A stretch of 64,000 nucleotides of DNA, from contig NZ_LT630003.1 in assembly GCF_900105615.1 (NCBI RefSeq), positions 2,728,001 to 2,792,000 of the forward strand. The letters are read 5' to 3'. A program made the position numbers and the translations under genes. Source of the DNA: Lacrimispora sphenoides JCM 1415. GTDB taxonomy: Bacteria; Bacillota; Clostridia; Lachnospirales; Lachnospiraceae. Positions 29,683 through 63,105 of this stretch are shown one piece after another (position 1 is the stretch's first letter; each line of letters opens with the position of its first letter). A model generated the notes under the pieces. It made no database searches and was not told the DNA's origin. It worked only from the letters and a program-made list of their open reading frames with translations.

Positions 29683-30395
29683 TGTATAGAAATAAGACTT
29701 TTTTGGCGATCATACCTGCCAGGAGCGGCTCAAAAGGGATCATTGATAAAAACATCCGGGAAATCAACCACAAACCCCTGATGGCATATACGGTGGAAGC
29801 CTGTAAACGTTCCGGAATTTTCGATGATATCGTGGTATCGACTGACTCTGTAAAATATGCGGAAATCGCAGAGCGGTTCGGGGCCAGCGTACCCTTTCTA
29901 CGCCCAAAGGAACTGGCTGCGGATCAGGCTTCCTCCAACGATGTCATACTGCATGTCATCAATGGGCTGAGGCAGCTTGGAAAAGCGTTTGATTGCTTTA
30001 TGCTTTTACAGCCCACCTCTCCTTTAAGAAACGAAATACATATAATGAAAAGCGCTGATATCCTCCTAGAGAATGATGCCGATTCTGTCGTCAGTATCCG
30101 CAAGTCAGACTCCCACTCCTATTTAACTGTTGAGCTTACGGAGGAAGGAAGAGTGAAAGCCTTATTTTCGGATAAAAAACAGGTCAGAAGGCAGGATGTG
30201 CCGCCGGAATACAGAATTAACGGGGCTATTTACCTGGCTCTGACCAGTTATTTTATGAAGCATAGAAGCTTTTATGAGGGCAAAACCCTGCCCTATTTGA
30301 TGAACGCCTTTGATTCCATTGACATCGATGATGATTTCCAGCTGAAAATAGCAGAATTGCTTCTCATTGACAAAAACTTATCAAACCCGTTCTGA
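29682..30395 (+). CDS. legF: CMP-legionaminate cytidylyltransferase LegF (NeuA family)
   Basis: Cytidylyltransferase of 237 residues that activates the sugar with CTP. The nucleotide-binding motif IIPARSGSKGI is at the N-terminus, and QPTSPLRNE and VSTDSVKYAE are also present. ATG 29682 is chosen over 29670: it overlaps the legG stop (TAATG) and has GGAGG five bases upstream. It is the last gene of the locus, and the next gene converges from the right with only 11 bp between. Confidence 0.88.
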   Translation: MYRNKTFLAIIPARSGSKGIIDKNIREINHKPLMAYTVEACKRSGIFDDIVVSTDSVKYAEIAERFGASVPFLRPKELAADQASSNDVILHVINGLRQLGKAFDCFMLLQPTSPLRNEIHIMKSADILLENDADSVVSIRKSDSHSYLTVELTEEGRVKALFSDKKQVRRQDVPPEYRINGAIYLALTSYFMKHRSFYEGKTLPYLMNAFDSIDIDDDFQLKIAELLLIDKNLSNPF

Positions 30396-30406: not shown

Positions 30407-31549
30407 TCAATTGCCTTCCGCAATCAGCCCCAGGGCCAGGAGGGCACTTTTTTCAAGCGCATCTTCCGTTGTAAATTCATCAGGCGTATGGACCTCATTC
30501 ATTCCGCAGGCCACTACGATCCCCCGAATCCCGCCCCTGACAAAGTGGTTATTATCACTGCCGCCCAGAGTATACTGAATGGTGCCTTTTAAGCCAAGGG
30601 ACCGGCAGACGCGCTTGAACCGTTCTACCACTTCTTCACTGTCACTTATTTCATAGGCTTCGATCTGCTTTTCCACAGTGATCTCCAGGCTTCCGCCATA
30701 TCCTGCCGCATTCCCTTCAAAGATCTCCTTCAGCCTGTTCCATTCAGCCAGAGCCTTATGATCCTTTAAACTCCGGATCTCCCCTGATACAATGCATTCG
30801 TCAGAAACAATGTTGGTTTGCTTTCCACCGCTTATTTTTCCAATGTTTACAGTTGTTTCATCGTCTACCCAGCCCTGCTTTAACTGGGAAATGGCATGAG
30901 CTGCGATTTCAATGGCATTGATCCCAAGCTGTGGACAAAAGCCTGCATGGGCATTTTTGCCCTTCACCTTGATTGCAAAGGAAAGTAGGGTGGGTGCAGC
31001 GGTTGCGGCCAGGCCAATCTCTCCGCTTAAATCAAATACATAAGCCTGTTTTGACTTTATTTTGGAATAATCAATCAGCTGGCTTCCTTTTCCGTAGTTC
31101 TCTTCTGCTACCGGAAACAGGACCTCAATATCTCCATGTGGGAGGTTGTTTTCCTTAACCACCCGGACTGCCTCCAATATGGCGGCGATTCCGGAAAGGT
31201 CGTCGGCACCAAGCACCGTATCCCCTTCCGAGGTAATCTTCCCCTTCTCATCCTGGACTGCGCGTTTCCCCTTCCCAGGCTTTACCGTATCCATATGGGC
31301 CGACAGCAAAATGGGGGCAGAATCTGTGGTTCCCTTTAAATATCCGTAAAGATTTCCTGTGGGAGCAGCGGTTCCATATTCCGGCAGCTTCTCTTTCAGC
31401 CGGTGACCGGCATCATCTTCCCGTACCTCAAATCCAAGCTGTTTTAATTCGCCTGTTAAATAGTCCGCAATTTCCCTTTCCTGATAAGTTTCGGAATCGA
31501 ATTCCACCATTTTTTTAAATTGGCTGACCAGCCTGCTTCTTTGAATCAT
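30407..31549 (-). CDS. M20 family metallopeptidase, PepT-like
   Basis: Cytoplasmic zinc peptidase of 380 residues. Metal-ligand segments are visible: SAHMDTV, GADDLSG, VAEENYGKG, and HTPDEF near the end. The dimerisation insert holds KNAHAGFCPQLG. It resembles tripeptidases (PepT-like), which would release amino acids from small peptides, possibly Cys-containing ones given the operon. It is the last gene of the 14-gene leftward run, 34 bp after the preceding gene. The ribosome-binding site (AGGTGG) is moderate. Confidence 0.88.
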   Translation of the reverse strand: MIQRSRLVSQFKKMVEFDSETYQEREIADYLTGELKQLGFEVREDDAGHRLKEKLPEYGTAAPTGNLYGYLKGTTDSAPILLSAHMDTVKPGKGKRAVQDEKGKITSEGDTVLGADDLSGIAAILEAVRVVKENNLPHGDIEVLFPVAEENYGKGSQLIDYSKIKSKQAYVFDLSGEIGLAATAAPTLLSFAIKVKGKNAHAGFCPQLGINAIEIAAHAISQLKQGWVDDETTVNIGKISGGKQTNIVSDECIVSGEIRSLKDHKALAEWNRLKEIFEGNAAGYGGSLEITVEKQIEAYEISDSEEVVERFKRVCRSLGLKGTIQYTLGGSDNNHFVRGGIRGIVVACGMNEVHTPDEFTTEDALEKSALLALGLIAEGN

Positions 31550-31583
31550 ATCGCCACCTGCTCTTTTCCTATGGGTTCATATA

Positions 31584-32600
31584 TTAATTATCATATCTTT
31601 TAAACTTTTCTTCCGGTGTTTTGCTTAATTCCTTCCGGTTCTGTGGTGCAGACCAGATACCCTCGTAATCAATCTGGTTCACGAAACGGGAATTAAAATC
31701 CTGGAAAAAGGACTTGTTTTCTGACTGGGGCGCCGCAATATCCCGAAAGTACGTATTGTTTCTGAATGCAGGAATTTCATATAAGTCCCTGCAATATCCC
31801 CAGATGTTCTCGTAATCAACGATTCTGTGCTTTATGGGGCCCAGATTCCTGTAATAATGGGTATCAAACCTTGCCAGGGTCACAAAAAGTCTCACATCGC
31901 TGTCAGTCACATAATCTCCAAATAAGAAACGGGTTTTGGAAAGACGCTCTTCGATGAGGTCCAGTGCATGATAAAAGTCTTCAAATGCCTCTTCATAAGC
32001 TGTGATGGACTGCGCAAACATCATCCGGTAGGTCCCGTTATTTACATTGGGAAAAAGCCAGTCATTGTAATCATCGATCTCTTTTCTCAGTTCCTCCGGG
32101 TACAGATCCGGGGCATCCGGGCTTTGAAATGGACGGAACGCTGTTTCGAAGTAGTTGGTCAGCCTGTGGTAATCATTATTTACTACCTTTTCTGCAGTAA
32201 CATCGACCAGGGCCGGCACAGTGCAGCGTCCTTCATAATCCGGGTCCGCATGATAGTATAGCTCACTTAAATACTGAACGCCGAGGACCGGGTCTTTTCT
32301 GTCCTCATTATACACGAATTCCCAGCCATATGCACGATTTTCTTTGCTGTGGCCAACTAAATTGATACCGATTGCCTCCTCAAGTCCTAATAGTTCCCGT
32401 ACAATGGAAGCCCGGTTGGACCAATGACAGCCTTTTGCCCAAAACAGCCGGTACCGGCCGCTTTCTGCCTTTAAATCATTTTCACCATCACCAAATGGAG
32501 TTGTAAAATGGTTGGGCTGACGAATAAATGCTCCTCTTTCATCGATTTCCTTCTCTATTTCCTTTGGGCGTATCTTTTGCCCGATGCTGCAGCTTGACAT
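31584..32600 (-). CDS. Glutathionyl-hydroquinone reductase-like protein (GST fold), copy 1
   Basis: Protein of 338 residues of the Xi-class GST / glutathionyl-hydroquinone reductase family. The order is an N-terminal thioredoxin-like domain and a helical domain containing FLFGDYVTDSDVRLFVTLARF, a family hallmark. The catalytic-Cys region reads WAKGCHWSNRAS (Cys 58), differing from the CPWA of copies 2 and 4. The known reaction is thiol-dependent reductive cleavage of glutathionyl-hydroquinones; Clostridia usually lack glutathione, so the real thiol and substrate are open. GGAGGAG precedes ATG 32600. It lies 12 bp after the GNAT gene. Confidence 0.88.
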   Translation of the reverse strand: MSSCSIGQKIRPKEIEKEIDERGAFIRQPNHFTTPFGDGENDLKAESGRYRLFWAKGCHWSNRASIVRELLGLEEAIGINLVGHSKENRAYGWEFVYNEDRKDPVLGVQYLSELYYHADPDYEGRCTVPALVDVTAEKVVNNDYHRLTNYFETAFRPFQSPDAPDLYPEELRKEIDDYNDWLFPNVNNGTYRMMFAQSITAYEEAFEDFYHALDLIEERLSKTRFLFGDYVTDSDVRLFVTLARFDTHYYRNLGPIKHRIVDYENIWGYCRDLYEIPAFRNNTYFRDIAAPQSENKSFFQDFNSRFVNQIDYEGIWSAPQNRKELSKTPEEKFKRYDN

Positions 32601-32612
32601 ATGAATCTCCTC

Positions 32613-33053
32613 CTATTGGCTCAATATTTTTTCTGTATAAATAATCTTAAAAATACCTGTGTCCATCTGCCTGCTGTAATCCGCTTTATAACCCAGGGCT
32701 TCATAAAAGCCTACCGCTTCATCCCGGCTGGTGATGCAGACTTTTTTAAACCCGGATTCCTGGATCCAGCGTTCGGCCTCTTCGATTAACAGCCGCCCTA
32801 CTCCCTTTTTCCGGTATTCCTTAAGGACGCTGACCCGCTCAATTTTAGCCGCTCCTTCTCCCTCGGGAAAACGGATCCTGCAGGCTGCAATCGGATTGAT
32901 ATCATCCAGTACCAGCACATAGAGAGATTTTTCGGAATCTCTTTCATCAAATTCTTCATATATCGGAACATGGAACCCTTTTACCATGGTTTCTGTCCTT
33001 ACATAATGAACGCCTGCTAACTGCCAGAGTTCCTTTACCCTTACCGCCTTCAT
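32613..33053 (-). CDS. GNAT N-acetyltransferase 1
   Basis: GNAT-fold protein of 146 residues, ElaA-like. The acetyl-CoA loop is VLKEYRKKGVGRLLIEEAE. ATG 33053 is preferred over GTG 33062, which sits inside the AAAGGAG site itself. It lies between two GST-like genes in the same operon. In the known S-(2-succino)cysteine salvage route of Bacillus an N-acetyltransferase and a deacetylase act on the Cys conjugate; a parallel role here is inference. Confidence 0.85.
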   Translation of the reverse strand: MKAVRVKELWQLAGVHYVRTETMVKGFHVPIYEEFDERDSEKSLYVLVLDDINPIAACRIRFPEGEGAAKIERVSVLKEYRKKGVGRLLIEEAERWIQESGFKKVCITSRDEAVGFYEALGYKADYSRQMDTGIFKIIYTEKILSQ

Positions 33054-33098
33054 AACCGCCACTCCTTTATGTCAATCGGATATTCGCAATCCGTGATC

Positions 33099-34064
33099 CT
33101 ACTTGATGAGGTTAAAATTTATTTTATCCCTGCCATGAGGTGTTTTCCAGATGGAAAGATCCGGTCCCTTAGGTACGATACCATATGGATTCGTGGAAAC
33201 AGCACATAAATGATAGTGTTTTTTGATAGCCTCTAAATCCGTGGTATCGCCAAATCCCGGCTGTTCATATAGATCCCTTGCATATCCCCAGAGATTAGGG
33301 AAATCGGAAATCAGGCTGCGGTTTAATAAAAAGCCATTATAGTAGGCCACATCAAAGCGGGCCAGGGTCACATACAATCGAATATCGGATTCCGTGATGT
33401 TATCCCCAAACAGGTAACGGCTGTGACTTAAGCGTTCTTCCAGCCAGTCAAGACGGTGAAAGACAAGTTCATATGCCTCCTCATAAGCTTCCTGACTTCT
33501 GGCAAAACCTGCTTTGTAGACTCCGTTGTTAATTTCATGGAAAAGAATATCATTTAATGCATCAATCTCTTCTCTTAATGCAACCGGGTATAAATCCGGT
33601 GCTCCCGGCTTATGATACTTCTTCCACTCCACCTCCCAGTATCTGGTCAGGTTAAAGTAATCGTTATTTACGACCTTTCCTGTCGTTAAATCCACGACTG
33701 CAGGTACGGTAAACCTTCCCTTATATCCGGGATCTGCTTTTAAATAGGCTTCACTTAAATACCGGATCTTTAATACCGGATCTTCCTCATTCTCATCCAG
33801 AGTAAATGCCCAATCGGTCCGCTCCACATCAGGTCTTAGAGGATCCAGCGTACCCAGACTGATTACATCCTGAAGCCCAAGCAGGCTCCTTACAATGACA
33901 GAGCGGTGGGCCCATGGGCAGGCAGGGGACCAGAACAGGCGGTATCTTCCTGCTTCTACAGGCAGCTGCCCTTCTTCTGTTCCAAATGCCGTTGTAAACT
34001 GGTTTTTCTGCCGGTTGAATTTCCCGTCTTTTTCGATTTCATCCTTTATAAATTTCTTTGACAT
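33099..34064 (-). CDS. Glutathionyl-hydroquinone reductase-like protein, copy 2
   Basis: GST-fold protein of 321 residues, closest in style to copy 4 (41983). The catalytic motif is SPACPWAHR (Cys 49), the canonical form, and the helical domain has YLFGDNITESDIRLYVTLARF. The N-terminal QKNQFTTAFG segment is shared by all four copies. GAGGT precedes the ATG. It is flanked by two GNAT genes with gaps of 31 and 45 bp. See copy 1 for the substrate caveat. Confidence 0.88.
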   Translation of the reverse strand: MSKKFIKDEIEKDGKFNRQKNQFTTAFGTEEGQLPVEAGRYRLFWSPACPWAHRSVIVRSLLGLQDVISLGTLDPLRPDVERTDWAFTLDENEEDPVLKIRYLSEAYLKADPGYKGRFTVPAVVDLTTGKVVNNDYFNLTRYWEVEWKKYHKPGAPDLYPVALREEIDALNDILFHEINNGVYKAGFARSQEAYEEAYELVFHRLDWLEERLSHSRYLFGDNITESDIRLYVTLARFDVAYYNGFLLNRSLISDFPNLWGYARDLYEQPGFGDTTDLEAIKKHYHLCAVSTNPYGIVPKGPDLSIWKTPHGRDKINFNLIK

Positions 34065-34095
34065 AGTAATTACCTCATCCTTTTTTTAAACCTGC

Positions 34096-34584
34096 CTAAT
34101 GTTTCATATCGTCTCTGCCGTATTCATCGACAAAGCGGTATTTTTCCGGAAGCAGGAATCCTTCTTTTTTCATCCAGTTTAAAGAATCTTCTGATCCCCG
34201 GAATATGCTCATGGCTGTCTTATTCCTGCGAAATCCCATTTTTTCGTATAGAGCGACCGTCCTGGGATGGGTGTATAGGATGACATTCTGGCCCTTAACC
34301 TGATCAAGCAGCAATTCAATCAGTTTTCTGCCGATTCCGTATCCCTGATATTCTTCATCAAGAGCAATATTATAGATCGCTGCCTGGCAGACGCCATCGG
34401 ATAAGGCCCTTCCAACCCCCACGATCCTCTCTTTGTCATAGACAAACACTACAGCATAACTGTTGTTAAAGATGGTCTCCTGATCTTTTGCAGACCGGTC
34501 CGACAGCCCGGAACGCCGAAGCACATCGGCGACTTCCTGCCAGTGAATCCCTTCCTTTGTTATCTTGTAGGTGATATCATTCAT
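34096..34584 (-). CDS. GNAT N-acetyltransferase 2
   Basis: GNAT-fold protein of 162 residues. The acetyl-CoA loop reads IALDEEYQGYGIGRKLIELL, followed by YTHPRTVALYEKMGF. The ATG has AGGAGG upstream and overlaps the end of GST-like copy 3 by 8 bp, so the two products are made together. It is unlike GNAT 1 in sequence, which suggests a different acceptor. Confidence 0.85.
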   Translation of the reverse strand: MNDITYKITKEGIHWQEVADVLRRSGLSDRSAKDQETIFNNSYAVVFVYDKERIVGVGRALSDGVCQAAIYNIALDEEYQGYGIGRKLIELLLDQVKGQNVILYTHPRTVALYEKMGFRRNKTAMSIFRGSEDSLNWMKKEGFLLPEKYRFVDEYGRDDMKH

Positions 34585-35599
34585 GGAAGACCTCCTGAAG
34601 TTTCAATTTTTTATCCGGGTCCCTGCTTAAGTTTTCCCGCCCTGACGGCAGCTCCCAGCCACTGACATCAGGTCCCTTGGCAACTATGGAATATACATTT
34701 CCCCATAGAGGTTTTAGATGGGGCGATAATTGATAATGCTTTTTGTATACATCAAAATAGGTGCTTTCTTTTATTTCCGGAACCTGATATAAATCTCTGG
34801 CATAGGGCCACAAATTCTTATACTCCACCAGTCTCTTTTTGTTTGCATGAAAAACCTGATGGTATACCACATCAAATCTAGCCAGAGTCGGATACAGCCT
34901 GATATCAGAGTCCGTAATATAATCTCCGAATAAAAAACGCCTTGATTCCAGTCTTTGATCCAGGAGATCCATTGCCTTAAAAAAGGCTTCAAAAGCCTTC
35001 TCGTATGCTTCCTGAGATCTGGCAAAGCCAACGTCATATACGCCATTGTTGATTCTTTCGAATATGAAATGGTTGAGCTCATTGATTTCTGTCCGAAGAT
35101 CAGCCGGATAAAGCTCCGGTGCACCGTCCTTATGATATGGCTTCCATGCAGTTTCAAAATAGACCGGGATCCAGAAGTGATCATTATTCACACCTTTTCC
35201 TGAGGTTGTATCTGCCAGAATGGGAACGGTAGGCCGTTCCTTGTAATCTCCGTCAGGAGTATCCCTGTCATAAATTTCTTTTAAATAGTGGATTCCCAAA
35301 ACAGGATCCTTCTCACCCGGATCCTCTGTAAATACCCAGCCTTTGGGATCACGGAAAATTCCCGTTGTTCCAAGGCTGATAACCTTATCCAGTCCCAAAA
35401 GCCTTCTGGCTATTATGACCTTGTGCGCATGGGGACAGGCCGGCATCCAAAGCAGTCGGTACCGGCCGGCTTCCACCGGCCACTCCCCTTCTTCCCTGCC
35501 AAATTTCTTTTTAAATAAATTATCCTGGACCTTGATTTCCCCGCCCGCCTGAATTTGATGACGAAATGTGTTCTCAAAGACTTCGATTCCTTCTGCCAT
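34577..35599 (-). CDS. Glutathionyl-hydroquinone reductase-like protein, copy 3
   Basis: GST-fold protein of 340 residues. The catalytic region reads MPACPHAHK (Cys 55), with His in place of Trp after CP. The helical domain keeps FLFGDYITDSDIRLYPTLARF. It is 53 bp downstream of the ABC ATPase gene and overlaps GNAT 2, tying the GST-like enzymes to a transporter. Confidence 0.88.
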   Translation of the reverse strand: MAEGIEVFENTFRHQIQAGGEIKVQDNLFKKKFGREEGEWPVEAGRYRLLWMPACPHAHKVIIARRLLGLDKVISLGTTGIFRDPKGWVFTEDPGEKDPVLGIHYLKEIYDRDTPDGDYKERPTVPILADTTSGKGVNNDHFWIPVYFETAWKPYHKDGAPELYPADLRTEINELNHFIFERINNGVYDVGFARSQEAYEKAFEAFFKAMDLLDQRLESRRFLFGDYITDSDIRLYPTLARFDVVYHQVFHANKKRLVEYKNLWPYARDLYQVPEIKESTYFDVYKKHYQLSPHLKPLWGNVYSIVAKGPDVSGWELPSGRENLSRDPDKKLKLQEVFHE

Positions 35600-35652
35600 A
35601 TCATTCTCCCTGTCAAGCGGATATTTGCAATCCGCGGCCTTTCTTGATTCGG

Positions 35653-36417
35653 TTATATCGTATAATCAGCGCTTTCCAACATGTGAATCTTTACTAAAAA
35701 CTCCTTTAACCGTTGGTTTTTCGGATTATCAAAGATCTCTTTCGGTGTTCCGTCAGCTACAATTTTTCCGTTTTCCAGGAAAATGATCCGATTGGCCACG
35801 TTTCTCACAAAATTCATCTCATGGGTTACAAGGAGTATGGTATTGCCCTCCTGGGCTGCCTTTTTTATAGTAATCAGAACTTCGCTCACCAGCTCCGGGT
35901 CCAGAGCCGATGTCGGTTCATCCATGAGAAGCAGTTTCGGATTCATAGCCAGCGCCCTTGCGATGGCCACCCTTTGCTGCTGCCCTCCGGATAAATGCCT
36001 GGGATAATGGGACAAACGGTCCCCCATCCCTACCTTCTGCAAGTGCTTTTCCGCAATGCTTCTGGCCTCGTTTTTCTTTAGCTTTTTTACTACCAACAGC
36101 CCTTCCATTACATTTTCCAGGGCGGTCCGGTTCTTGAAAAGATTAAACTGCTGGAATACCATTTCCGTATTCTTCCGCAACTCCAGTTTTTCCCTGGCTG
36201 ATCTTGTAGTAAGGTCGATTTCCTGATCGTTTATCTTGATGGTTCCCTTTTCCGGTTTTTCAAGCAGATTGATGGAACGGAGCAGGGTGGACTTACCGGT
36301 TCCTGATGGTCCGATGATGGCGACCACATCACCTTCGTGTATGACCAGATCAATGTTATCCAGCACCACGTTCTTGCCAAATTTTTTACTTAATCCACGA
36401 ATTTCAATGACACTCAC
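35653..36417 (-). CDS. Polar amino acid/cystine-type ABC transporter ATPase
   Basis: ATPase of 254 residues for the permease just upstream. Walker A GPSGTGKST, signature LSGGQQQR and Walker B LLMDEPTSALD are intact. Like GlnQ/TcyC-type proteins it has no C-terminal regulatory domain. It lies two bases after the permease gene. The substrate is inferred from the sulfur-rich neighbourhood: cystine or an S-conjugated cysteine. Confidence 0.92.
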   Translation of the reverse strand: MSVIEIRGLSKKFGKNVVLDNIDLVIHEGDVVAIIGPSGTGKSTLLRSINLLEKPEKGTIKINDQEIDLTTRSAREKLELRKNTEMVFQQFNLFKNRTALENVMEGLLVVKKLKKNEARSIAEKHLQKVGMGDRLSHYPRHLSGGQQQRVAIARALAMNPKLLLMDEPTSALDPELVSEVLITIKKAAQEGNTILLVTHEMNFVRNVANRIIFLENGKIVADGTPKEIFDNPKNQRLKEFLVKIHMLESADYTI

Positions 36418-36419
36418 AC

Positions 36420-37220
36420 TTATTCCTCCTTTCCCTGTTCCTGTCCATGCTTTTTGGACAGGACCCGCCCCGTTTTACCGGGTGTAAAGATATGTCCGCA
36501 GGACTCTTCTGCCGAAACCGTTTCCGGAACGCTCATCTTTTTTTCTAAATATACAAACAGCCGCTCAATAAAAATCGTCATTACCCAGTAGATGATAGCC
36601 AGAGAACAATATGCTTCAAAATACCGGTAGCTGTTTCCAGCAAGAATCTTACCCTGAGCCGTTATCTCAACGACCGAGCAGGTAAATGCAAGTGAGGTCC
36701 CCTTTACCAGGCTTATGAGGGAGTTTCCCAGGGATGGGAGGGCTACAGTCACCGCCTGGGGGAACAAAACCCTGCGGAATATCTGGAACCCGTTCATTCC
36801 AAGAGCCTTGGCTGCCTCAACCTGCCCTTTTTCCACGGACTGTATGGCTGCCCGTATGGTTTCTGAATCAAAGGCAGATTGATTAAGCCCCAGGGCCACG
36901 ATCGCAAAAATAATTGACGGGATTCCATTTACGTTATAAGAAGTTCCATTGTAAAAGTTATAGTATTTCAATGCGATAGGAATTCCAAAATACGTAAGAT
37001 AAAGCTGGACGATAATCGGAGTTCCCCGTACGACCGAAACAAATAAAGTACATAATTGCCGCAGGACCGGGACATTGTGGATCTTCACTACGGCGATCAA
37101 AAGCCCTATCACCCAACCGATTATCAGGGCAACTCCTGTCAGCTGCAGTGTTACAGGCAAGTATTTCAGCAATGCAGGAATTTCCGTGAACACCAGCTGC
37201 CAGTCAAATATTTTGCTCAT
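36420..37220 (-). CDS. Polar amino acid/cystine-type ABC transporter permease
   Basis: Membrane permease of 266 residues, HisM-like. It has about five hydrophobic segments and the EAA loop AAKALGMNGFQIFRRVLFPQA in shortened view (AAKALGMNGFQIF). A charged C-terminal tail of about 40 residues extends beyond the usual end. It lies 18 bp after the binding-protein gene and 2 bp before the ATPase gene, the complete importer of this class. Confidence 0.9.
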   Translation of the reverse strand: MSKIFDWQLVFTEIPALLKYLPVTLQLTGVALIIGWVIGLLIAVVKIHNVPVLRQLCTLFVSVVRGTPIIVQLYLTYFGIPIALKYYNFYNGTSYNVNGIPSIIFAIVALGLNQSAFDSETIRAAIQSVEKGQVEAAKALGMNGFQIFRRVLFPQAVTVALPSLGNSLISLVKGTSLAFTCSVVEITAQGKILAGNSYRYFEAYCSLAIIYWVMTIFIERLFVYLEKKMSVPETVSAEESCGHIFTPGKTGRVLSKKHGQEQGKEE

Positions 37221-37238
37221 CTTGTTCCTCCGGTTTTA

Positions 37239-38168
37239 TTAATAAGATGGGGAGTAATCGGATCCAAACCATTTTAAGTTAATTTCCTTAGAAGTTCCGT
37301 CCTCAATCACTTCTTTTAACGCCTTGTCGATATCCTCTACCAGTTTCTCATTTCCCTTGCTGACAATCAGATAACTGAAGGGTTCTTCCATTAAGTCCTT
37401 TGAAAGGGTGTTGCTGATGGAAGCTCCTTCCACATTAAAACTAAATTCTTTCTGATAATACTCGAACATCGGTTTATCCATTAATACAAAATCATATTTC
37501 CCTGCTTCCACATCCTGAATCTGCAGCACAAGGTCTTCATCACTGTATTCGATTGCAATGGGATTCTGGCTATGGGCGGCGTTATAGTTTTCCAGGGCTG
37601 TGGTGATATTAATTCCCGCAGATGAAATAGTCTTTAAGCCAGCAAGATCATCCCATGTCTCTATGCCTGCTGCCTTTTCATTGTTCTTTGCAAAGATGGC
37701 AACGTACTCATTGGCAAAGATCGGATCGGTAAATAAATACTTTTCTTTTCTGCTCTCATTCTTCGCAAAATTATTTACACCGATCTGGTACCGGTCGGAA
37801 TCCAGGCCTGCGAAAATGGAGGTAAAATCGGTCACTTCGATTTCAAGCTTATATTGGGGGAGCCGGTCAAAAACAGCTTTGATCAGTTCAATATTGTGAC
37901 CGGTAAGCTGATTGCTGCTGTCCACAAAGGTGAACGGCTTTGGAGAACCGCCTGTTGCCGCATGAATGACCACCGGTTCTGCTGTGCCTGCAGCCTCACT
38001 GCTCTCCTCCTGTGTCGCCGGTTCTTCTGAACTTTCTGTTTTTGTTGTTTCCTCAGCTGCTTTGGTTGCCGCCGGATTAGTACTGCTCTTGCATCCGGTC
38101 AGGGCTCCTAATACGGCCACTGCCGTAAGCACCCCCAGGATTGATTTGCCTGCAATATTTTTCTTCAT
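37239..38168 (-). CDS. Amino acid-binding lipoprotein (family 3 solute-binding protein)
   Basis: Lipoprotein of 309 residues with lipobox LTGCKSS (Cys near 26), a Ser/Thr/Glu-rich linker to about 65, then a family 3 solute-binding fold with GHNIELIKAVFDRLP. It is the binding component for the permease and ATPase that follow. Clostridial cystine-binding proteins look like this, but specificity cannot be read. The 75-bp gap to metQ upstream contains no hairpin, so transcription can continue through it. Confidence 0.9.
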   Translation of the reverse strand: MKKNIAGKSILGVLTAVAVLGALTGCKSSTNPAATKAAEETTKTESSEEPATQEESSEAAGTAEPVVIHAATGGSPKPFTFVDSSNQLTGHNIELIKAVFDRLPQYKLEIEVTDFTSIFAGLDSDRYQIGVNNFAKNESRKEKYLFTDPIFANEYVAIFAKNNEKAAGIETWDDLAGLKTISSAGINITTALENYNAAHSQNPIAIEYSDEDLVLQIQDVEAGKYDFVLMDKPMFEYYQKEFSFNVEGASISNTLSKDLMEEPFSYLIVSKGNEKLVEDIDKALKEVIEDGTSKEINLKWFGSDYSPSY

Positions 38169-38243
38169 AATTTTCTCTCCTCTTTTATAAAATGATTTTC
38201 TTTGTTTGGGTTATCTCCTTCCTGTTACCGGATGGAGTCTATG

Positions 38244-39068
38244 CTATTGCAATTCCTGGGGAACGAACCACAAGCCTGAGTTGTTCTTTTTCATATACTC
38301 TTTCAATTCGTCCGAGTGATAAGCAGCTGCGATGTCCTTTGCCCATTTTGTATCTTTGTTCTCTTCTTTTACAACCACCTGTAAAATCAGATGATCCAAA
38401 ATATCTTCTTGTAATATGGCGGTAGATGGATCAATGCCTGCATTATAAACAATGCTTCCTGTGATCACTGCAAAGTCAAAATCATCCAGAGCAGGAGGGA
38501 TGTTTAACGAATCCATTTCCACAAAATTGATGTTGTACGTGTTTTCAATGATGTCGGATTGTTTCACCGTTTCAAGGGGAACATCCGGGTTAAGCTTGAT
38601 CCAGCCGGCCTTTTGAAGAAGTGCATAAGCACGTGCCGTATTGGATGCGTCATTTGGCACTGCGACAATCGCGCCATCCGCTATGGCGTCCAAAGAGGTG
38701 TGCTTTGCAGAAAACAGTCCGGCGGGAACGGTGGGTATGGGGGAGATGGGAACAAGGTTTCCATTTTGCTTATTGTTGAAATTTTCTGCATAAGCAGTAT
38801 GCTGTTCCACGTTAAAGTCAATTTCACCTTCATTCAACGCGGTATCATTCTGCAAAAGGTCTGAAAAATCAACCACTTCCAGCTGATACCCCTGCTTCTC
38901 TAAGATGGGTTTCACTGCATCTTCAAATAATACCGTATAGGGTCCTGCAGCCTTGCCGTATTTCAATGTTTTTTTGTCCTGGCCCAGCTTGCTTTCGCTA
39001 TTGGCTGAGCAGCCGGCGACAGTGACGGCAAGTAAGGCAGCGATGATAATCAATCCAATTTTTTTCAT
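38244..39068 (-). CDS. metQ: MetQ-type substrate-binding lipoprotein
   Basis: Lipoprotein of 274 residues with lipobox VAGCSANS (Cys 20) and the NlpA/MetQ fold (LKYGKAAGPYTVLFEDAVKP, VPNDASNTARAYALLQKAG). Such proteins bind methionine or related sulfur compounds. It lies 15 bp downstream of metI. Together with MetN and MetI it forms a full MetNIQ importer embedded in the GST-like operon, which suggests an unusual sulfur substrate. Confidence 0.92.
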   Translation of the reverse strand: MKKIGLIIIAALLAVTVAGCSANSESKLGQDKKTLKYGKAAGPYTVLFEDAVKPILEKQGYQLEVVDFSDLLQNDTALNEGEIDFNVEQHTAYAENFNNKQNGNLVPISPIPTVPAGLFSAKHTSLDAIADGAIVAVPNDASNTARAYALLQKAGWIKLNPDVPLETVKQSDIIENTYNINFVEMDSLNIPPALDDFDFAVITGSIVYNAGIDPSTAILQEDILDHLILQVVVKEENKDTKWAKDIAAAYHSDELKEYMKKNNSGLWFVPQELQ

Positions 39069-39083
39069 AAACAGGTTCCTCCT

Positions 39084-39752
39084 TTATTCACGTGCTCTGA
39101 CACGTTTTGATAAATAATTTCCAAGCCCTTGAATCAGCTGCACAAACACGATCAATACGATTACGGTCGCAACCATTAAGGGTGTGTTAAATTGCTGATA
39201 CCCATAGGTTAATGCCAGGTTACCAACACCGCCTCCGCCTATGGCTCCCGCCATGGCGGTTGCACCAAGGAGACCGATGGTGCCTGTGGTCAGGGACAAG
39301 ATCAGCGAACCCAATGCTTCCGGCAGCAAAAAGTACCAAATAACCTGCAAAGGAGTCGCCCCCATGGCTTCCGCCGCTTCGATGATGCCCTTATCAACCT
39401 CAAGCAGCGAGCTTTCTACCAGGCGCGAAAGAAATGGAGTAATGTAAAACACCAGCGAAACCAAAGCGGCCTGGGTGCCGATCCGGGTACCCACAATGAT
39501 TTTTGTTAAGGGCATAATTGCCACCAGCAAAATAATATATGGCACGGAGCGCACAATGTTAATTGTGTAATTGATCAGGGTATAGACAGCTTTGTTTTGC
39601 AGGATACCGCCCTTACGTGTAATGGTAAGTAATATGCCGAGGGGAATCCCAAGTAGTGATCCCAGCACCAGCCCCCAGAACAGCATATAAACGGTCTGGC
39701 CGGCAGCAATTATCATCTGTTCGCTTGTAATGCCTAAATATTGCTCAATCAT
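39084..39752 (-). CDS. metI: MetI-type ABC permease
   Basis: Permease of 222 residues, the normal length, with five membrane segments and the EAA region EAAEAMGATPLQVIWYFLLPE. The opening region has SLLGIPLGILLT, and GAIGGGGVGNLALTYGY is a MetI hallmark. The ATG overlaps the end of metN by 8 bp. Confidence 0.93.
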   Translation of the reverse strand: MIEQYLGITSEQMIIAAGQTVYMLFWGLVLGSLLGIPLGILLTITRKGGILQNKAVYTLINYTINIVRSVPYIILLVAIMPLTKIIVGTRIGTQAALVSLVFYITPFLSRLVESSLLEVDKGIIEAAEAMGATPLQVIWYFLLPEALGSLILSLTTGTIGLLGATAMAGAIGGGGVGNLALTYGYQQFNTPLMVATVIVLIVFVQLIQGLGNYLSKRVRARE

Positions 39753-40794
39753 TGCGATCCTCCTCTCCCCCGGTCAAACGTAAGACTTCCACATAGACTC
39801 CGGAATCTTCAATAAATTGCTGCACCTCGTCAAGCCTTTGAGCGGAACCAAATACCTGCACAATCATAACGCTGAACACAACTCCCTGAAGTTCACAAAC
39901 GGTGGCAAACAAAATGCTGTTTTCCAAGTGGTATTCCGCGCTTATGCGGTACAGCAGGGGTTTTCCGGCAATATTTCCTTGAAAACGCAGACGGAAAATC
40001 CGGTTATCTCCCTGATATTTAAGAATTTCCCGGGCAAGGCTCCTGGGTATGCTGTCGTCAATCACGGTCTTTACAAAACTTCTGGTAATTTTATTCTGTG
40101 GATTACCGAATACTTCAAGCACTGTTCCCTTCTCTAGCACCCTTCCATTATCCATAACCGCAACTTTGTTACAAACATCACAAATAACGTGCATTTCGTG
40201 AGTGATCAGGAGAATCGTAACATTCAGCTCCCTGTTTATTTTTTTCAATAACTCCAGAATAGAATCCGTGGTCTTAGGATCCAAAGCACTTGTAGCCTCG
40301 TCGCAAAGTAAGATGCTGGGATTTGTGGCAAGGGCGCGGGCTATGCCGACCCTTTGTTTTTGACCGCCTGAAAGCTTTGATACATTGGTGTGGGTTTTAT
40401 CCTCAAGCTCTACAAACTGCAAGAGCTCTTTTACCCGCTTTTCTATGTCCTTTTTGGGCACTTTGTTCAATACCAGCGGCGCCGCTACGTTCTGAAAAAC
40501 AGATTTGGACTGGAGCAGATTAAATTGCTGGAAAATCATGCCGATATTCTTTCTCAGCTTTCGTAAGTCCGGTTTTGACAGGGTGGTGATGTCCGTGCCA
40601 TCAACCAGTACCCGCCCTTCTGATGGGCGCTCCAATAAGTTTACCAGGCGTACCAGGGTAGATTTACCTGCTCCGCTGAAACCTATCACTCCGAAAATAT
40701 CGCCCTTTTTTACTGTAAGGCTGACCTGCCGCAAGGCATGAACTTCACCAGAAGCAGAATCAAACCGTTTACTTACGTTTTGAATTTCAATCAT
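39745..40794 (-). CDS. metN: MetN-type ABC ATPase with C-terminal NIL domain
   Basis: ATPase of 349 residues. Walker A GFSGAGKST, signature LSGGQKQR and Walker B LLCDEATSALD are present; the C-terminal 90 residues are the NIL domain, which in MetN binds the transported methionine and shuts the transporter. It overlaps the deacetylase gene upstream and metI downstream by 8 bp each, giving a tightly coupled set. Confidence 0.93.
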   Translation of the reverse strand: MIEIQNVSKRFDSASGEVHALRQVSLTVKKGDIFGVIGFSGAGKSTLVRLVNLLERPSEGRVLVDGTDITTLSKPDLRKLRKNIGMIFQQFNLLQSKSVFQNVAAPLVLNKVPKKDIEKRVKELLQFVELEDKTHTNVSKLSGGQKQRVGIARALATNPSILLCDEATSALDPKTTDSILELLKKINRELNVTILLITHEMHVICDVCNKVAVMDNGRVLEKGTVLEVFGNPQNKITRSFVKTVIDDSIPRSLAREILKYQGDNRIFRLRFQGNIAGKPLLYRISAEYHLENSILFATVCELQGVVFSVMIVQVFGSAQRLDEVQQFIEDSGVYVEVLRLTGGEEDRND

Positions 40795-41965
40795 CAGATG
40801 CCTCCTGCGCAGGAATCAATTCCCCGCTTTTTAAGGCTAAAAGAGTTTTTTGTGCCAAAGCTGCAAAATAATCAATGGCCGGCTTCAATGCATTGGTGTC
40901 AACTTGAAATTTCGGGTGGTGGTTGGGATAGGACTCACCAGTTCCTATACGAATGAAGAAACCTGGAATCTTTTCCTGATAAAAGGCAAAGTCTTCTCCG
41001 CCAAGAGACGGTGAAGAAGTTTTGACCTTCAGCCCCTGTTCTTTTGCTACGGCGGCAGCAGCAGGCTCAAAACACGGGGCATTATTTGTGGCAGGAGGCC
41101 CTGCAAGCCAGTCTATTTCTGCTTCTGTCCCCTGTGACAATGCAATATGCTGAACCAGTGTACGGAAACGTTCTTCGATCAGACGGCGATTGTGTCTACC
41201 CATGGTGCGTACCGTTCCTTCAAGCTCTGCTGTCTGCGGAATTACATTCCATGTGTTACCTGCCGTAACACGGGTTATGCTGAGCAGGCCCTGAGAAAAC
41301 GGATCAATATTACGGCTGATGATGCTTTGGGCAAGGGTTACAATCTGTGATGCTGTAAGCACAGGATCAATTCCGTCCTGAGGGTGAGCCGCATGGGTGC
41401 CTTTTCCCGTAAGCCTGACTGTAAACCTGTCAACAGCGGCGGTAACACTTCCGGAAACAATTCCTACAGTTCCAACCGGGAGTGTGATATCGGTATGCAG
41501 GCCGTAGATCCCGTCAACATCATCAAGAACCTTTGTTTTGATTACTTCCAAAGCACCGACCGAGGATTCCTCGGCGGGTTGAAACAGGATTTTTACCGTT
41601 CCGTGCAAATGTTCCCGCTGCTCCTGTAATTTTTTTGCCACATACAGCATCACTGTGGTATGAAAGTCGTGACCGCAGGCGTGCATCTTTCCAGTTATGG
41701 CAGAGGCATAGGGTAACTCGGTTTCTTCCTGCACGGGCAGAGCGTCGATATCGCAGCGCAGTGCGATCACAGGACCGTCGTTTTCACCTTGTATTTCTGC
41801 TGCCAATCCTGTTTTTAAATCCAAATCCAGGATACGGATATTGTAGTATTCTAAAAACTCACGAATTCGGCCCGTTGTCTCGTACTCTTCAAAGGATAGT
41901 TCGGGATTTTGGTGAAACCAATGAAAGGTTTCTGTAATCTGGTTATAAAATGTAGAATCAGACAT
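40787..41965 (-). CDS. M20 family amidohydrolase/N-acyl deacetylase (YxeP-like)
   Basis: Metal-dependent amidohydrolase of 392 residues, M20D. Metal-ligand segments are HACGHDFHTT, FQPAEESS and HPQDGIDP, with GGEDFAFY near the C-terminus. Relatives hydrolyse N-acetyl amino acids; YxeP and SndA act on N-acetylated S-substituted cysteines in Bacillus. Overlap with metN and the nearby GNATs fit an acetylate-process-deacetylate scheme for thiol conjugates; this is inference. Confidence 0.9.
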   Translation of the reverse strand: MSDSTFYNQITETFHWFHQNPELSFEEYETTGRIREFLEYYNIRILDLDLKTGLAAEIQGENDGPVIALRCDIDALPVQEETELPYASAITGKMHACGHDFHTTVMLYVAKKLQEQREHLHGTVKILFQPAEESSVGALEVIKTKVLDDVDGIYGLHTDITLPVGTVGIVSGSVTAAVDRFTVRLTGKGTHAAHPQDGIDPVLTASQIVTLAQSIISRNIDPFSQGLLSITRVTAGNTWNVIPQTAELEGTVRTMGRHNRRLIEERFRTLVQHIALSQGTEAEIDWLAGPPATNNAPCFEPAAAAVAKEQGLKVKTSSPSLGGEDFAFYQEKIPGFFIRIGTGESYPNHHPKFQVDTNALKPAIDYFAALAQKTLLALKSGELIPAQEASDD

Positions 41966-41982
41966 AAACGCTCCTGCCTTTC

Positions 41983-42963
41983 CTATTTTCTCTTTCCGAA
42001 TTTCTCATCCCTGTTATTCGGTTCATCCCAGATGGAAACATCCGGTCCCAGGGGAAGAATGTTATATGGATTGTGTCCATGGCTTCCCAGGAGATATCCC
42101 CTTTTTATGGAATCAAAATCCGTGGCCTCTTTAAATGCCGGAATCGTATACAAGTCCTTTGCATAATTCCACAGATTATCAAAATCCGCAATGCGGTTCC
42201 TGTTTGTCTTATGACTGAAATAGTAAGCCACGTCAAACCGGGCAAGGGTTACATATAACCGGATATCAGAATCAGTGAGCCGGTCTCCAAACAGATATCT
42301 CCCCTTGGAAAGCCGTTCTTCCAGCCAGTCAAGCCTTTGAAACAGCACATCATATGCAGTTTCATATTCTTTTTGGGACTGTGCAAAACCTGCTTTGTAT
42401 ACCCCGTTGTTCACTTCATGGAATAAGATCACATTGAGTTCATCAATTTCCTCTCTTAAATCCTCAGGATACAGATCCGGTGCCCCCGGCTTATAAAATG
42501 GCTTCCATGCGGTTTCCCAGTAATTTGTCAAACGGTGATAATCGTTGTTTACCACCTTTCTGGTCTTTAAATCTACCACAGTGGGAACCGTTGCCCTTCC
42601 TTCATATTCCGGGTCTGTGGCTGCATAGATTTCCGGGAGATACCGGATTTTAAGAACCGGATCCACGCCGCCCTCGTCAAGGGAAAATTCCCAGCCGTTC
42701 TCCGTTCTTACGGGACTTACCTTACCGACGCTGATCGCATCTTCCAGCCCCAGAAGCTTTAAGGCAATGATCTGTCTTGTGGCCCATGGGCATAGGGGCG
42801 TCCATATGAGCCGGTACCGCCCGGCTTCCACCGGAAGCTCTCCCTCCCCTTCACCAAAGGGTGTGACAAAATAATTATCCTGTCTTACAAAAGCGCCTGT
42901 TTCAGATACTTCGTGGGTATCTTCTGTGGTCGCTACCTTTCCGAATCTCTCTTCTATTGCCAT
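41983..42963 (-). CDS. Glutathionyl-hydroquinone reductase-like protein, copy 4
   Basis: GST-fold protein of 326 residues and first structural gene of the 14-gene run. The catalytic motif is TPLCPWATR (Cys 58), and the helical domain has YLFGDRLTDSDIRLYVTLARF. ATG 42963 is preferred: AAGGA lies just upstream, and the longer frame would begin inside the attenuator. It follows the terminator at 42995 directly, so it is the first gene released when attenuation is relieved. Confidence 0.88.
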   Translation of the reverse strand: MAIEERFGKVATTEDTHEVSETGAFVRQDNYFVTPFGEGEGELPVEAGRYRLIWTPLCPWATRQIIALKLLGLEDAISVGKVSPVRTENGWEFSLDEGGVDPVLKIRYLPEIYAATDPEYEGRATVPTVVDLKTRKVVNNDYHRLTNYWETAWKPFYKPGAPDLYPEDLREEIDELNVILFHEVNNGVYKAGFAQSQKEYETAYDVLFQRLDWLEERLSKGRYLFGDRLTDSDIRLYVTLARFDVAYYFSHKTNRNRIADFDNLWNYAKDLYTIPAFKEATDFDSIKRGYLLGSHGHNPYNILPLGPDVSIWDEPNNRDEKFGKRK

Positions 42964-42994: not shown

Positions 42995-43024
42995 AAAAAA
43001 AGCAGATGCCCTCTGACACCTGCC
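42995..43024 (-). terminator. Attenuator terminator between Cys leader peptide and GST-like operon
   Basis: Minus strand: GCAGGTG (43017-43023) pairs with CATCTGC (43002-43008), seven pairs with one G-T, then seven T. Its 5' arm can instead pair with ACCTG or CCTG within the leader peptide codons, around an inner TGCAT/ATGCA hairpin (43030-43046). The two folds exclude each other, as in classic attenuators. Confidence 0.85.
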
Positions 43025-43026
43025 TT

Positions 43027-43134
43027 CTATGCATAAAAACCATGCACAGGAGTTTCAGGTTTCAAGACACAAATTAAATGACCATTCTTTCCGCATTTAC
43101 AGCAACAACACATCTTCTCATTCATCTGAACCAT
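43027..43134 (-). CDS. Cysteine-rich leader peptide (35 residues)
   Basis: ATG 43134 is preceded by AAAGGAG at six bases, a strong site. Residues 9-14 read CCCCKC, encoded TGT TGT TGC TGT AAA TGC, and a further Cys is at 22; the peptide opens MVQMNEKM and ends GFYA. The stop lies within the attenuator. Six Cys codons, five of them in a run of six, just before a terminator with a competing fold are the signature of translational cysteine sensing: ribosomes stalled for Cys-tRNA should favour readthrough into the operon. The peptide itself may have no other function. Confidence 0.85.
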   Translation of the reverse strand: MVQMNEKMCCCCKCGKNGHLICVLKPETPVHGFYA

Positions 43135-43209: not shown

Positions 43210-43252
43210 AAAAAAATACAGCTGGTAATAAGATAATCTTATAGCCAGCTGT
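43210..43252 (-). terminator. Intrinsic terminator of cysK
   Basis: Minus strand ACAGCTGG/CCAGCTGT arms with inner ATAAGAT/ATCTTAT pairing, followed by TATTTTTTT. Confidence 0.9.
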
Positions 43253-43289: not shown

Positions 43290-44222
43290 TTAGCCGAATA
43301 AAGGAGTGGACAAATACCGGTCACCGGAATCCGGCAGTAAGACGACGATGGTCTTTCCCTTGTTTTCCGGTCTTTCCGCCAGCAGCTTTGCGGCTTTTAG
43401 TGCAGCGCCGGAAGAGATCCCCACCAGAATTCCCTCTGATACTGCAAAAGCCTTACCTTCCTTAAATGAATCCTCATTCTCAACGGTAATTATTTCATCG
43501 TAAATTCCGGTATCCAGGACTTCAGGCACAAATCCTGCGCCGATACCCTGAATCTTGTGAGGCCCTGGTTTGCCTCCGGAGAGTACCGGACTGCTTGCCG
43601 GTTCTACCGCTACAATTCTGACATCCGGTTTCTTTTCCTTTAAATATTGTCCCACACCTGTAATGGTTCCGCCTGTACCTACGCCAGCTACAAAAATGTC
43701 CACTTCCCCAGCTGTCTGTTCCCAGATCTCCGGCCCGGTGGTTTCCTTGTGTACTTTGGGGTTTGCCTGGTTCACAAACTGTCCCAGGATTATAGAACCA
43801 GGTATGCTGTCTTTCAGCTCCTCTGCTTTCTCAATAGCCCCTCTCATGCCCTTTGCTCCCTCAGTTAATTCTAATTCTGCACCATAGGCTTTTAATAAGT
43901 TTCTACGTTCCACGCTCATGGTATCCGGGAGCGTCAGAATGGTCCGGTAGCCTTTGGCCGCCGCAACGGCTGCCAAACCGATTCCGGTATTTCCTGATGT
44001 CGGCTCAATGATGGTTGCTCCAGGCTTTAAGATCCCTTTTTCTTCTGCATCTTCAATCATGGCAAGAGCGATCCTGTCTTTAACGGAACCGGCAGGATTT
44101 AAGTATTCCAGCTTAGCCAGAAGCGTAACGCCCTCGATTCCTTCCTTTGCACTGTACCGGTTTAATTTGAGTATCGGTGTTCCACCAATGAGTTCCACTG
44201 CGCTTTCTTTAATTGTTCCCAT
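43290..44222 (-). CDS. cysK: Cysteine synthase (O-acetylserine sulfhydrylase)
   Basis: PLP enzyme of 310 residues forming cysteine from O-acetylserine and sulfide. The PLP lysine is in [11 protein letters not shown] (near 48), the substrate loop is [11 protein letters not shown], and the phosphate-binding glycines are [16 protein letters not shown] precedes the ATG. A Cys-rich leader peptide and hairpin lie upstream and a strong terminator follows. Full length, ordinary CysK. Confidence 0.95.
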
Positions 44223-44278
44223 ATTCTTTACCTCCGTTTTATATGATATTTAATATTTTTGGTTAATTAAATGAAAAT

Positions 44279-44308
44279 AGAGCGGCTGCCAATTAGGGCA
44301 CCTGCTCC
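44279..44308 (-). terminator. Attenuator-like hairpin upstream of cysK
   Basis: Minus strand GGAGC.G.TGCC pairs with GGCA.C.GCTCT (two 1x1 mismatches), followed by ATTTTCATTT. Weaker than the attenuator at 42995, but in the matching position between a Cys-rich leader peptide and its gene. Confidence 0.5.
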
Positions 44309-44369
44309 TTTGTTCCGCTGAAATATGGATATTTCTCATATTCCAGGATATCAGGCATCATAATAAGCA

Positions 44370-44471
44370 TTACAACAAAGCTATATCTCTATTCATACAT
44401 ACAGTCTGACAACAACATCTATTATTATAAAATCCATGATTACCTGCTGCCATGAATTTGAATTCCTTCAT
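44370..44471 (-). CDS. Cysteine-rich leader peptide of cysK (33 residues)
   Basis: ATG 44471, with GAGATG upstream, opens a 33-residue frame beginning MKEFKFMAAGNHGF and containing RCCC at 18-21 (three consecutive TGT) and a fourth Cys at 25. It lies between the promoter (44526-44554) and an attenuator-like hairpin, 147 bp before cysK. A second frame of 22 codons (44301-44369) follows it before the hairpin but lacks a ribosome-binding site. The arrangement parallels the 43027 peptide, with unrelated sequence apart from the Cys run. Confidence 0.7.
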   Translation of the reverse strand: MKEFKFMAAGNHGFYNNRCCCQTVCMNRDIALL

Positions 44472-44491
44472 ACTGATCATCTCTTTTCATT

Positions 44492-63096: not shown

Positions 63097-63105
63097 TTCA
63101 AAATT

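Follow-up and report, generated by a model that had tools for sequence, protein, structure and literature searches.

The subject of this analysis is a cluster of genes for glutathione S-transferase (GST)-like proteins in Lacrimispora sphenoides JCM 1415, contained in a stretch of 64,000 nucleotides (hereafter the window; coordinates refer to it unless given as genome positions) that covers 2728001-2792000 of the 5.3 Mb genome, a single contig. The cluster is an operon of 14 minus-strand genes (30407-42963), extending from the ATG of GSTa at 42963 to the stop codon of a PepT-like M20 peptidase gene at 30407. In the order of transcription it encodes GST-like A (GSTa, 41983-42963; CPWA motif), the M20a amidohydrolase (40787-41965; nearest solved structure YxeP, also named ScmP), a MetN-like ATP-binding cassette (ABC) ATPase (39745-40794; TIGR02314 400 bits, below the cut-off of 500), a MetI-like permease (39084-39752; NF008049 191 bits, below the cut-off of 212), a MetQ/NlpA lipoprotein (38244-39068; family scans), a cystine-type family 3 solute-binding protein (SBP, 37239-38168), an amino-acid ABC permease (36420-37220; named from sequence and position, with no NCBIfam match at 1e-50), an amino-acid ABC ATPase nearest to TcyN (35653-36417; NF008428 317 bits, below the cut-off of 406), GST-like B (GSTb, 34577-35599; CPHA motif), the acetyltransferase GNAT1 (34096-34584; family scans), GST-like C (GSTc, 33099-34064; CPWA motif), the acetyltransferase GNAT2 (32613-33062; family scans), GST-like D (GSTd, 31584-32600; CHWS motif) and the PepT-like peptidase M20b (30407-31549; TIGR01883 304 bits, cut-off 274). 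The match of SBP to its nearest solved relatives, 4eq9 and 4c0r, is modest (136 bits), and YtmK (2o1m) is the third-best solved match. M20a is closest among solved structures to YxeP, with E 7e-112 over 375 residues.

A preliminary description of this DNA had listed 14 leftward genes with gaps or overlaps of at most 75 bp. All of them are present with the content described, and the 13 junctions range from -8 to +75 bp. As the start of the first gene, ATG 42963 is better than TTG 42996. The count of four GST-like proteins agrees with a genome search, which gave four members of the family, all inside the operon, the other three showing 50-61% identity to GSTa. The nearest named relative of GSTa is found in Lacrimispora celerecrescens 152B (98% identity). 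The statement that the two GNATs are unrelated was too strong, as a weak match was obtained in a two-sequence comparison (25% over 64 residues, E 4e-5). A non-exhaustive scan gave two terminator-like sites on the minus strand within the operon, both intragenic (M20a and metI); the same pattern scan missed the hairpin located directly before the operon.

Upstream on the same strand is cysK (cysteine synthase A, 43290-44222; TIGR01139 446 bits, cut-off 351), a separate unit carrying the same type of attenuator and followed, ahead of the GST leader, by a terminator at 43210-43251 (minus strand, -18.7 kcal/mol). Past a plus-strand rubrerythrin gene, this strand continues with genes for a PatB-family C-S lyase (45542-46726; 482 bits, cut-off 340) and a cystathionine gamma-synthase/lyase-type protein.

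Cysteine leader peptides and the attenuator set

Both GSTa and cysK are preceded by a cysteine leader peptide and an attenuator, at 42995-43134 and 44273-44480, respectively, which the preliminary description had overlooked. The leader peptide of the GST operon (MVQMNEKMCCCCKCGKNGHLICVLKPETPVHGFYA; 43027-43134, minus strand), beginning with MVQMNEKMCCCCKC, is encoded by an open reading frame (ORF) of 35 codons with the ribosome-binding site AAAGGAG before it. The attenuator terminator (GCAGGTG...CATCTGC plus seven T; 42995-43027, minus strand, -16.8 kcal/mol) lies between this leader and GSTa, so that the order from cysK to GSTa is cysK terminator, ribosome-binding site, leader ORF, hairpin and GSTa. 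Between 43134 and 43210, the minus strand has no listed site resembling a promoter for the GST leader. The cysK leader peptide (MISMKEFKFMAAGNHGFYNNRCCCQTVCMNRDIALL; 44370-44480, minus strand), which carries a CCC run and was obtained from a short-ORF scan, is followed by a terminator hairpin at 44273-44308 on the same strand. The cysteine run of the GST leader is kept in relatives (L001 and L148-L150).

The short-ORF scan covered 81 sequences, the window and 80 relatives; the loci are related and the counts are not independent. It gave 17 short CCC-containing ORFs lying at most 350 nt from a gene on the same strand, 16 of them before cysK, metB or GSTa. Runs of leucine (48) and isoleucine (45) were commoner than runs of cysteine. 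In a relaxed scan, leaders were found for 23 of 184 sulfur and cassette genes vs 9 of 430 others. For terminators, we checked 17 CCC leaders, consisting of 15 from the short-ORF scan (L013 and L062 left out) and two from the own genome, and in 14 of them a terminator is located 83-117 nt past the first cysteine codon. The CCC ORF of L062 (Neisseriaceae), 217 nt upstream of GSTa, may be there by chance. The metB leaders of L003, L004 and L007 carry the cysteine run, and since no terminator was found after them they were dropped from the attenuators; this MRNRFCKSKKSVCCCYRNNK-type leader upstream of metB perhaps represents a different mode of control.

In the 14-row attenuator alignment, GCAGGT is present in all rows and CCTG in 13, with TCTG in the remaining one. 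For the terminator, as derived from this alignment, 98.4% of the 124 cells hold standard pairs, changes on both sides occur in 7 cells vs a shuffled mean of 2.1 (none of 500 shuffles as high), and the covariation score is 0.276 vs 0.192 shuffled (again none of 500).

Cysteine runs throughout the genome were considered as further leaders and mostly rejected: TGYTGYTGYTGY gave 38 matches, and of 30 loci 24 overlap an ORF of at least 110 aa. Among the remaining CCCC loci and six extra stretches (L117 and L118 left out), leader and terminator were found together only for the GST leader, L098 and L099. Control of the operon by a T-box or by S-adenosylmethionine (SAM) was likewise rejected, there being no Rfam match at the operon start in the window and in 14 of the 80 relatives; Rfam gave no T-box in the window and no family at gathering score at the attenuator. 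The 14 relatives gave three matches, two of them being a T-box in L038 (19097-19325), past the last operon gene, and a thiamine pyrophosphate riboswitch in L071. In a Bacillota metagenome-assembled genome (MAG; L052), a SAM riboswitch (17482-17584) lies between M20a and metB within a GST directon, where it probably controls metB-PatB.

A covariance model (R1) was built from the 14 leader-plus-terminator rows. In the own genome it gave four copies (E <=3.4e-14, all training rows), the next match being at 0.35 with 150 of 3021 candidates scored, and these copies precede cysK, the GST operon, an amino-acid ABC importer and a nitrogenase-like operon. Within the genus (124 candidates scored per genome), 68 matches at E <=0.01 were obtained in 24 of 25 genomes including the own one; these are partly training sequences or from the same genomes, while the training rows included no NifB-like or permease copy other than that of the own genome. 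The nearest recognised gene downstream is cysK (21 matches), an amino-acid ABC permease (21), a NifB-like gene (11) or GSTa (10), and more rarely SBP (1), a MetN-like gene 2.1 kb off (1) or none (3). At 66 of the 68 matches there is a short ORF with two or more cysteine codons. R1 also matched sites of the kind of the two CRCC leaders of GSTa in L006 and L008 (L186 and L191).

The attenuator copy at 2.360 Mb of the genome (L153, genome 2349000-2361200, outside the window) heads an operon resembling that of methylthio-alkane reductase (Mar). Its first gene, NifB-like, starts several hundred bases past the attenuator and is followed by genes for NifX-like, NifH-family (426 bits), CysK-like (313 bits, below the cut-off), D-like, K-like and NifX-like proteins, an SBP, a permease and a TcyN-like ATPase. 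The D-like protein matches 9fmg, the structure of MarDK2H2 (PMC12552129), with 305 bits vs 107 for the best classical NifD. In that publication Arg428-His429 is suggested as a possible hallmark of methylthio-alkane reductases (PMC12552129), and in our alignment the D-like protein has identical residues at this pair and at Cys66, 91, 158 and 270. A further copy, at 2.387 Mb (L154, genome 2375500-2387500, also outside the window), heads an ABC importer operon that encodes two permeases and an ATPase closest to TcyN, together with an SBP and a TetR-type regulator. One genome of the genus (L157) carries two Mar D/K-like sets in one operon, with CysK-like matches in two overlapping ORFs. The GST operon thus belongs to a small set of units for cysteine acquisition, and two of these resemble systems that release bound sulfur.

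The GST-like family and its gene neighbourhood

For comparison with other organisms, two peptide patterns were used against species genomes, giving 401 matches and 357 relatives, the best 80 of which were used as loci. A tree was constructed from 153 GSTs (80 loci and the window) and six solved proteins by a quick method with a midpoint root and warnings of long branches, leaving out 25 ORFs outside 290-380 aa or below 100 bits. The four window proteins fall into four clades, A (75 rows, support 81), B (10, 99), C (45, 89) and D (23, 100), which stand apart from the solved glutathionyl-hydroquinone reductases (GHRs) and adjoin the actinobacterial 4pts and 3m1g. Since each clade spans more than one organism family, across phyla, and a Treponema locus (L046) carries all four, the paralogues are probably old. 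Within the bacterial family, 11 of 150 genomes have a GST match at E <=1e-80, indicating that the trait is scattered.

The window proteins match solved Xi-class GSTs with E values of 8.3e-88, 3.3e-83, 2.9e-100 and 8e-61. By the structure numbering of ScECM4 (PMC5063366), the active-site cysteine (C46) is present in 152 of 153 homologues, including all four window proteins, and Arg155 and Trp79 are present in 153 of 153; Arg15 is absent in all ten B rows. The pair Glu173-Ser174 was found in none of the 153. Its first position is Asp in 152 and Asn in one, and its second is Tyr in 143, His in nine and Asn in one, with Asp-His in nine of ten B rows. The solved GHRs YqjG, NmGHR, PcpF and TvXi3 have Glu-Ser, and the actinobacterial 4pts and 3m1g have Asp-Phe/Tyr together with loss of Arg155. 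In ScECM4, Glu173-Ser174 holds the gamma-glutamyl end of glutathione and Arg155 its glycine carboxylate (PMC5063366). The altered gamma-glutamyl site thus favours a thiol other than glutathione, in line with the preliminary description, and the operon GSTs may work like GHRs with another thiol. The CPWA motif, termed strictly conserved in Xi-class GSTs (PMC5063366), is kept in 74 of 75 A and 45 of 45 C rows, and is replaced by CPHA (9) or CPHS (1) in B and by CHWS (19) or CNWS (4) in D. The catalytic Tyr triad (Y224, Y301 and Y346) is complete in all 130 A, B and C rows; the third Tyr is lost in 20 of 23 D rows, including window GSTd. Judged by these class residues, the operon GSTs are not filed as GHRs.

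Two fusions involve GSTd. GSTc and GSTd form one protein of 658 aa in L002, L004 and L007, and in L048, a single MAG, a complete cysteine synthase (402 bits with TIGR01139, cut-off 351) is joined to GSTd; in this MAG, the latter fusion is by sequence a direct link of the GST family to cysteine synthesis. GSTb-like proteins of 449-496 aa occur in L025, L011, L012, L014, L019, L020, L022, L024, L026 and L028, the C-terminal part in L025 being a second, diverged GST-like stretch.

Gene neighbourhood was compared in the 81 loci (80 relatives and the window), which are related and so do not represent 81 independent events. Of 81 GST directons, 61 have a cystine-type (Tcy) ABC component, 60 have a GNAT and 51 have the two together, vs 18, 1 and 1, respectively, of 189 GST-free control directons with at least two genes from the same loci; these genes thus occur together more often than by chance. 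A gene for cysK, metB or PatB is present in 27 of 81 GST directons, and a CysK homologue in 20. The Tcy-GNAT pair is found in the window and in 16 of 24 loci of Lachnospiraceae, 15 of 15 of Orbaceae, 5 of 7 of Paenibacillaceae, 4 of 4 of Neisseriaceae, 3 of 3 of Clostridiaceae, 1 of 3 of Oscillospiraceae, and the single loci of Selenomonadaceae and Enterococcaceae, and is absent from the single loci of Synergistaceae, Streptococcaceae and Bacillaceae. Two of the seven 'Paenibacillaceae' are probably misnamed, since the GSTs of the MAGs L003 and L004 are located inside the Lacrimispora clade and their loci are of Lacrimispora type. Linkage between GST and the cystine-type importer spans Bacillota, Spirochaetota and Pseudomonadota. 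The preliminary emphasis on four GSTs holds for the window but not everywhere, as a single GST with ABC genes and one GNAT suffices in Orbaceae (bee-gut-type, 15 loci) and in Neisseriaceae (4). Upstream of the one-GST cassette of Gilliamella and others are genes for a DpiA-like response regulator (17 loci) and a DpiB-like kinase (14 loci), for example at L034:9150-9851 and L036:7517-9106.

The genome contains no match to the glutamate-cysteine ligase families PF04262 and PF04107, in agreement with the earlier assumption that glutathione is not made. No match was found in the genome to the luciferase-type monooxygenase family PF00296, although a control search detected it in 10 of 14 genomes, B. 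subtilis among them. A 2SL-type lyase is not among the 14 operon genes; no genome-wide search was made for it.

The window also contains, convergent with the GST operon, plus-strand genes (27527-30395) for a NeuB-type N-acetylneuraminate synthase (TIGR03569 471 bits, cut-off 400) and, downstream of it, neuC-like and neuA-like genes named from sequence, the latter with no NCBIfam match at 1e-50. A fluoride riboswitch (Rfam RF01734) is located at 63030-63103 on the minus strand.

Proposed function and comparison with known systems

The leader and attenuator, the same attenuator on cysK and the CysK-GSTd fusion bear out the link to cysteine supply proposed in the preliminary description, and the operon very probably serves cysteine acquisition. 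Under the model predicted from the sequence, when charged tRNA-Cys is plentiful the ribosome would pass the CCCCKC leader and the GCAGGT hairpin would stop transcription; when it is scarce, the ribosome would stall and the upstream CCTG could base-pair with the terminator's CAGG, allowing transcription of the 14 genes. The cystine-type and MetNIQ-type importers may then take up cysteine-like compounds with blocked sulfur, and a GNAT may acetylate their amino group. The GST-like proteins would use the active-site cysteine and a non-glutathione thiol to detach the sulfur from its blocking group by thiolysis, a step modelled on the action of GHRs on glutathionyl-hydroquinones. A and C carry the complete motif, and B and D would be modified partners, with D probably working together with C as a complex. 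The YxeP-like M20a would release cysteine from N-acetylcysteine, the PepT-like M20b would trim peptide forms, and the neighbouring CysK could re-capture sulfide. As a guess, the substrates may be adducts formed by cysteine and plant-derived quinones or phenols.

Regulation, synteny and fusions all strengthen the salvage idea. For the reading of a cysteine-starvation operon for oxygen-free sulfur salvage, in which GST-like proteins replace the oxygen-dependent monooxygenase, we see about an even chance, and the cleavage of a thioether (C-S) by these proteins is judged to be similarly balanced. That the four paralogues represent a glutathione-free anaerobic C-S-cleaving machine, switched by one attenuator together with a nitrogenase-like C-S reductase operon, is a more tentative proposal, to which we give somewhat less than even weight; if true, Lacrimispora-type bacteria would possess an oxygen-free sulfur-scavenging regulon.

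Several observations weigh against these proposals. As regards attenuation, 3 of the 17 CCC leaders, all of them metB leaders, have no terminator; the CCTG:CAGG antiterminator is nearly invariant and has no support from covariation; and the terminator structure was scored on the same alignment that it was derived from, the count of further pair types (7) being close to that of shuffled alignments (6.4; 194 of 500 as high). R1 is rare outside the genus, matching 5 of 150 family genomes including the own one (E <=1e-4, stricter filters), and its neighbours in the other four are MetQ/MetN-like, MetN/MetI-like and cysK-like genes, with one left unassigned. As regards the pathway, 30 of 81 GST directons lack the Tcy-GNAT pair, which is present in only 1 of 8 loci of Treponemataceae and none of 3 of Spirochaetaceae. 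An M20 gene is found in 25 of 81 GST directons and in none of the 15 of Orbaceae, so deacetylation is not universal. Because GSTd has lost CP and mostly the third Tyr, not all four GSTs need be catalytic. A PF04262 match is present in 18 of 50 relatives' genomes (50 of the 80), including all 12 of Orbaceae, and glutathione is therefore neither required by the GST family nor incompatible with it. A directon need not be one transcript: in L052 the SAM riboswitch is located inside one.

Among other explanations, the best surviving is that the GST-like proteins are thioltransferases, which reduce imported disulfides and S-sulfocysteine to cysteine and break S-S instead of C-S. CysK/CysM-type enzymes can form S-sulfocysteine from thiosulfate, and the CysK-GSTd fusion would therefore be explained. 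The cystine-type importers and the CysK homologue in 20 of 81 GST directons agree with this function, as does ScECM4, a protein of the same fold characterised as a thiol-transferase (PMC5063366). The GNATs (60 of 81) and the YxeP-like deacetylase are, however, left without a role; cystine needs no acetylation, and four diverged paralogues suggest varied substrates. Taken together, this explanation is unlikely, though it deserves serious weight.

An improbable alternative is that the operon imports plant or host glutathione or its conjugates, M20b cleaving the peptide and the GSTs removing the conjugate with imported glutathione. The nearest solved SBP relatives, 4eq9 and 4c0r, which we take to be the glutathione-binding GshT, point in this direction together with the complete conservation of Arg155, but the SBP match is modest and the Glu-Ser pair is replaced in 153 of 153. 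Least probable of all, and by a wide measure doubtful, is that these are ordinary GHRs acting on quinones, their location near cysteine genes being accidental or due to the depletion of thiols by quinones: the fold, the closest solved proteins (Xi-class), and the CPWA, Trp79 and Tyr triad, all intact in C and, with one Cys exception in 75, in A, would fit, but the absence of PF04262 and PF04107 matches, the replaced Glu-Ser, the cysteine attenuator and the importer linkage in three phyla do not.

The GST cassette conserved with cysteine importers in anaerobes and gut bacteria is a candidate for a further oxygen-free step, as the described cleavage of S-substituted cysteines in such clusters involves monooxygenases, which need oxygen, and 2SL lyase, which is oxygen-independent and known for S-(2-succino)cysteine (2SC). 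The cassette also offers a possible physiological role for relatives of Xi-class GSTs where glutathione genes are lacking, and in Lacrimispora it is part of a cysteine-controlled set including the methylthio-alkane-reductase-like operon. No paper on this attenuator or GST cluster was found among the matches listed in the literature covered, to which most subscription journals do not belong.

Among known systems, the scm (yxe) operon of Bacillus subtilis, which includes an ABC importer, is similar in combining GNAT, importer and M20 deacetylase. In contrast, the window genome has no ScmK-type enzyme (PF00296, presumably the family of ScmK), and the operon has four GST-like proteins and adds a MetNIQ-type importer, a PepT-like peptidase and cysteine leader-peptide control. 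By sequence, the GST operon thus has the shape of an scm-type cluster with the monooxygenase replaced. In B. subtilis, 2SC is acetylated, cleaved and then deacetylated. The cleavage is carried out by the monooxygenase ScmK, other bacteria using 2SL lyase for it, and ScmP, YhaA or YtnL can perform the deacetylation (PMC12757645, PMC9706529). ScmP, formerly YxeP, is an N-acetylcysteine deacetylase of this route (PMC12757645), and the proposed likeness to the Bacillus deacetylation enzyme is sustained by M20a. The contrast drawn earlier with an oxygen-dependent route is supported by the lack of a luciferase-type monooxygenase in the genome, but is weakened by the description of 2SL lyase as oxygen-independent (PMC9706529).

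With the Xi-class GSTs (YqjG, ScECM4, PcpF and NmGHR, and the relatives 4pts and 3m1g), the window family shares the fold, the active-site cysteine, Trp79 and the cis-Pro, and in A and C also CPWA and the Tyr triad, while it differs in the replaced Glu173-Ser174, in CPHA of B and CHWS of D, and in the linkage to cysteine import. The archaeal NmGHR, for which gamma-Glu-Cys has been proposed as the thiol (PMC6345682), is a precedent for the use of a thiol other than glutathione.

Leader peptides with cysteine codons are known from Actinobacteria (PMC1262725) and from mycobacteria (a 2020 paper cited in PMC13236596), and uORFC-8-2 with a terminator lies upstream of cysS in Rhodobacterales (PMC8632094). 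C. perfringens cysK is controlled by T-boxes (PMC2940859). A survey of 2010 reported a histidine leader peptide in bacilli and, ermC aside, was aware of none demonstrated earlier outside Proteobacteria and Actinobacteria (PMC2965389). The attenuator identified here resembles the known ones in the short ORF with a run of cysteine codons, and uORFC-8-2 also in the terminator, but is found in a genus of Lachnospiraceae and upstream of cysK, the GST operon, importers and the Mar-like operon. This last operon agrees with MarBHDK (PMC12552129) in the NifB-, NifH-, D- and K-like genes at 2.36 Mb, and is distinguished from it by linkage with a CysK homologue, a cystine-type ABC importer and the cysteine attenuator.

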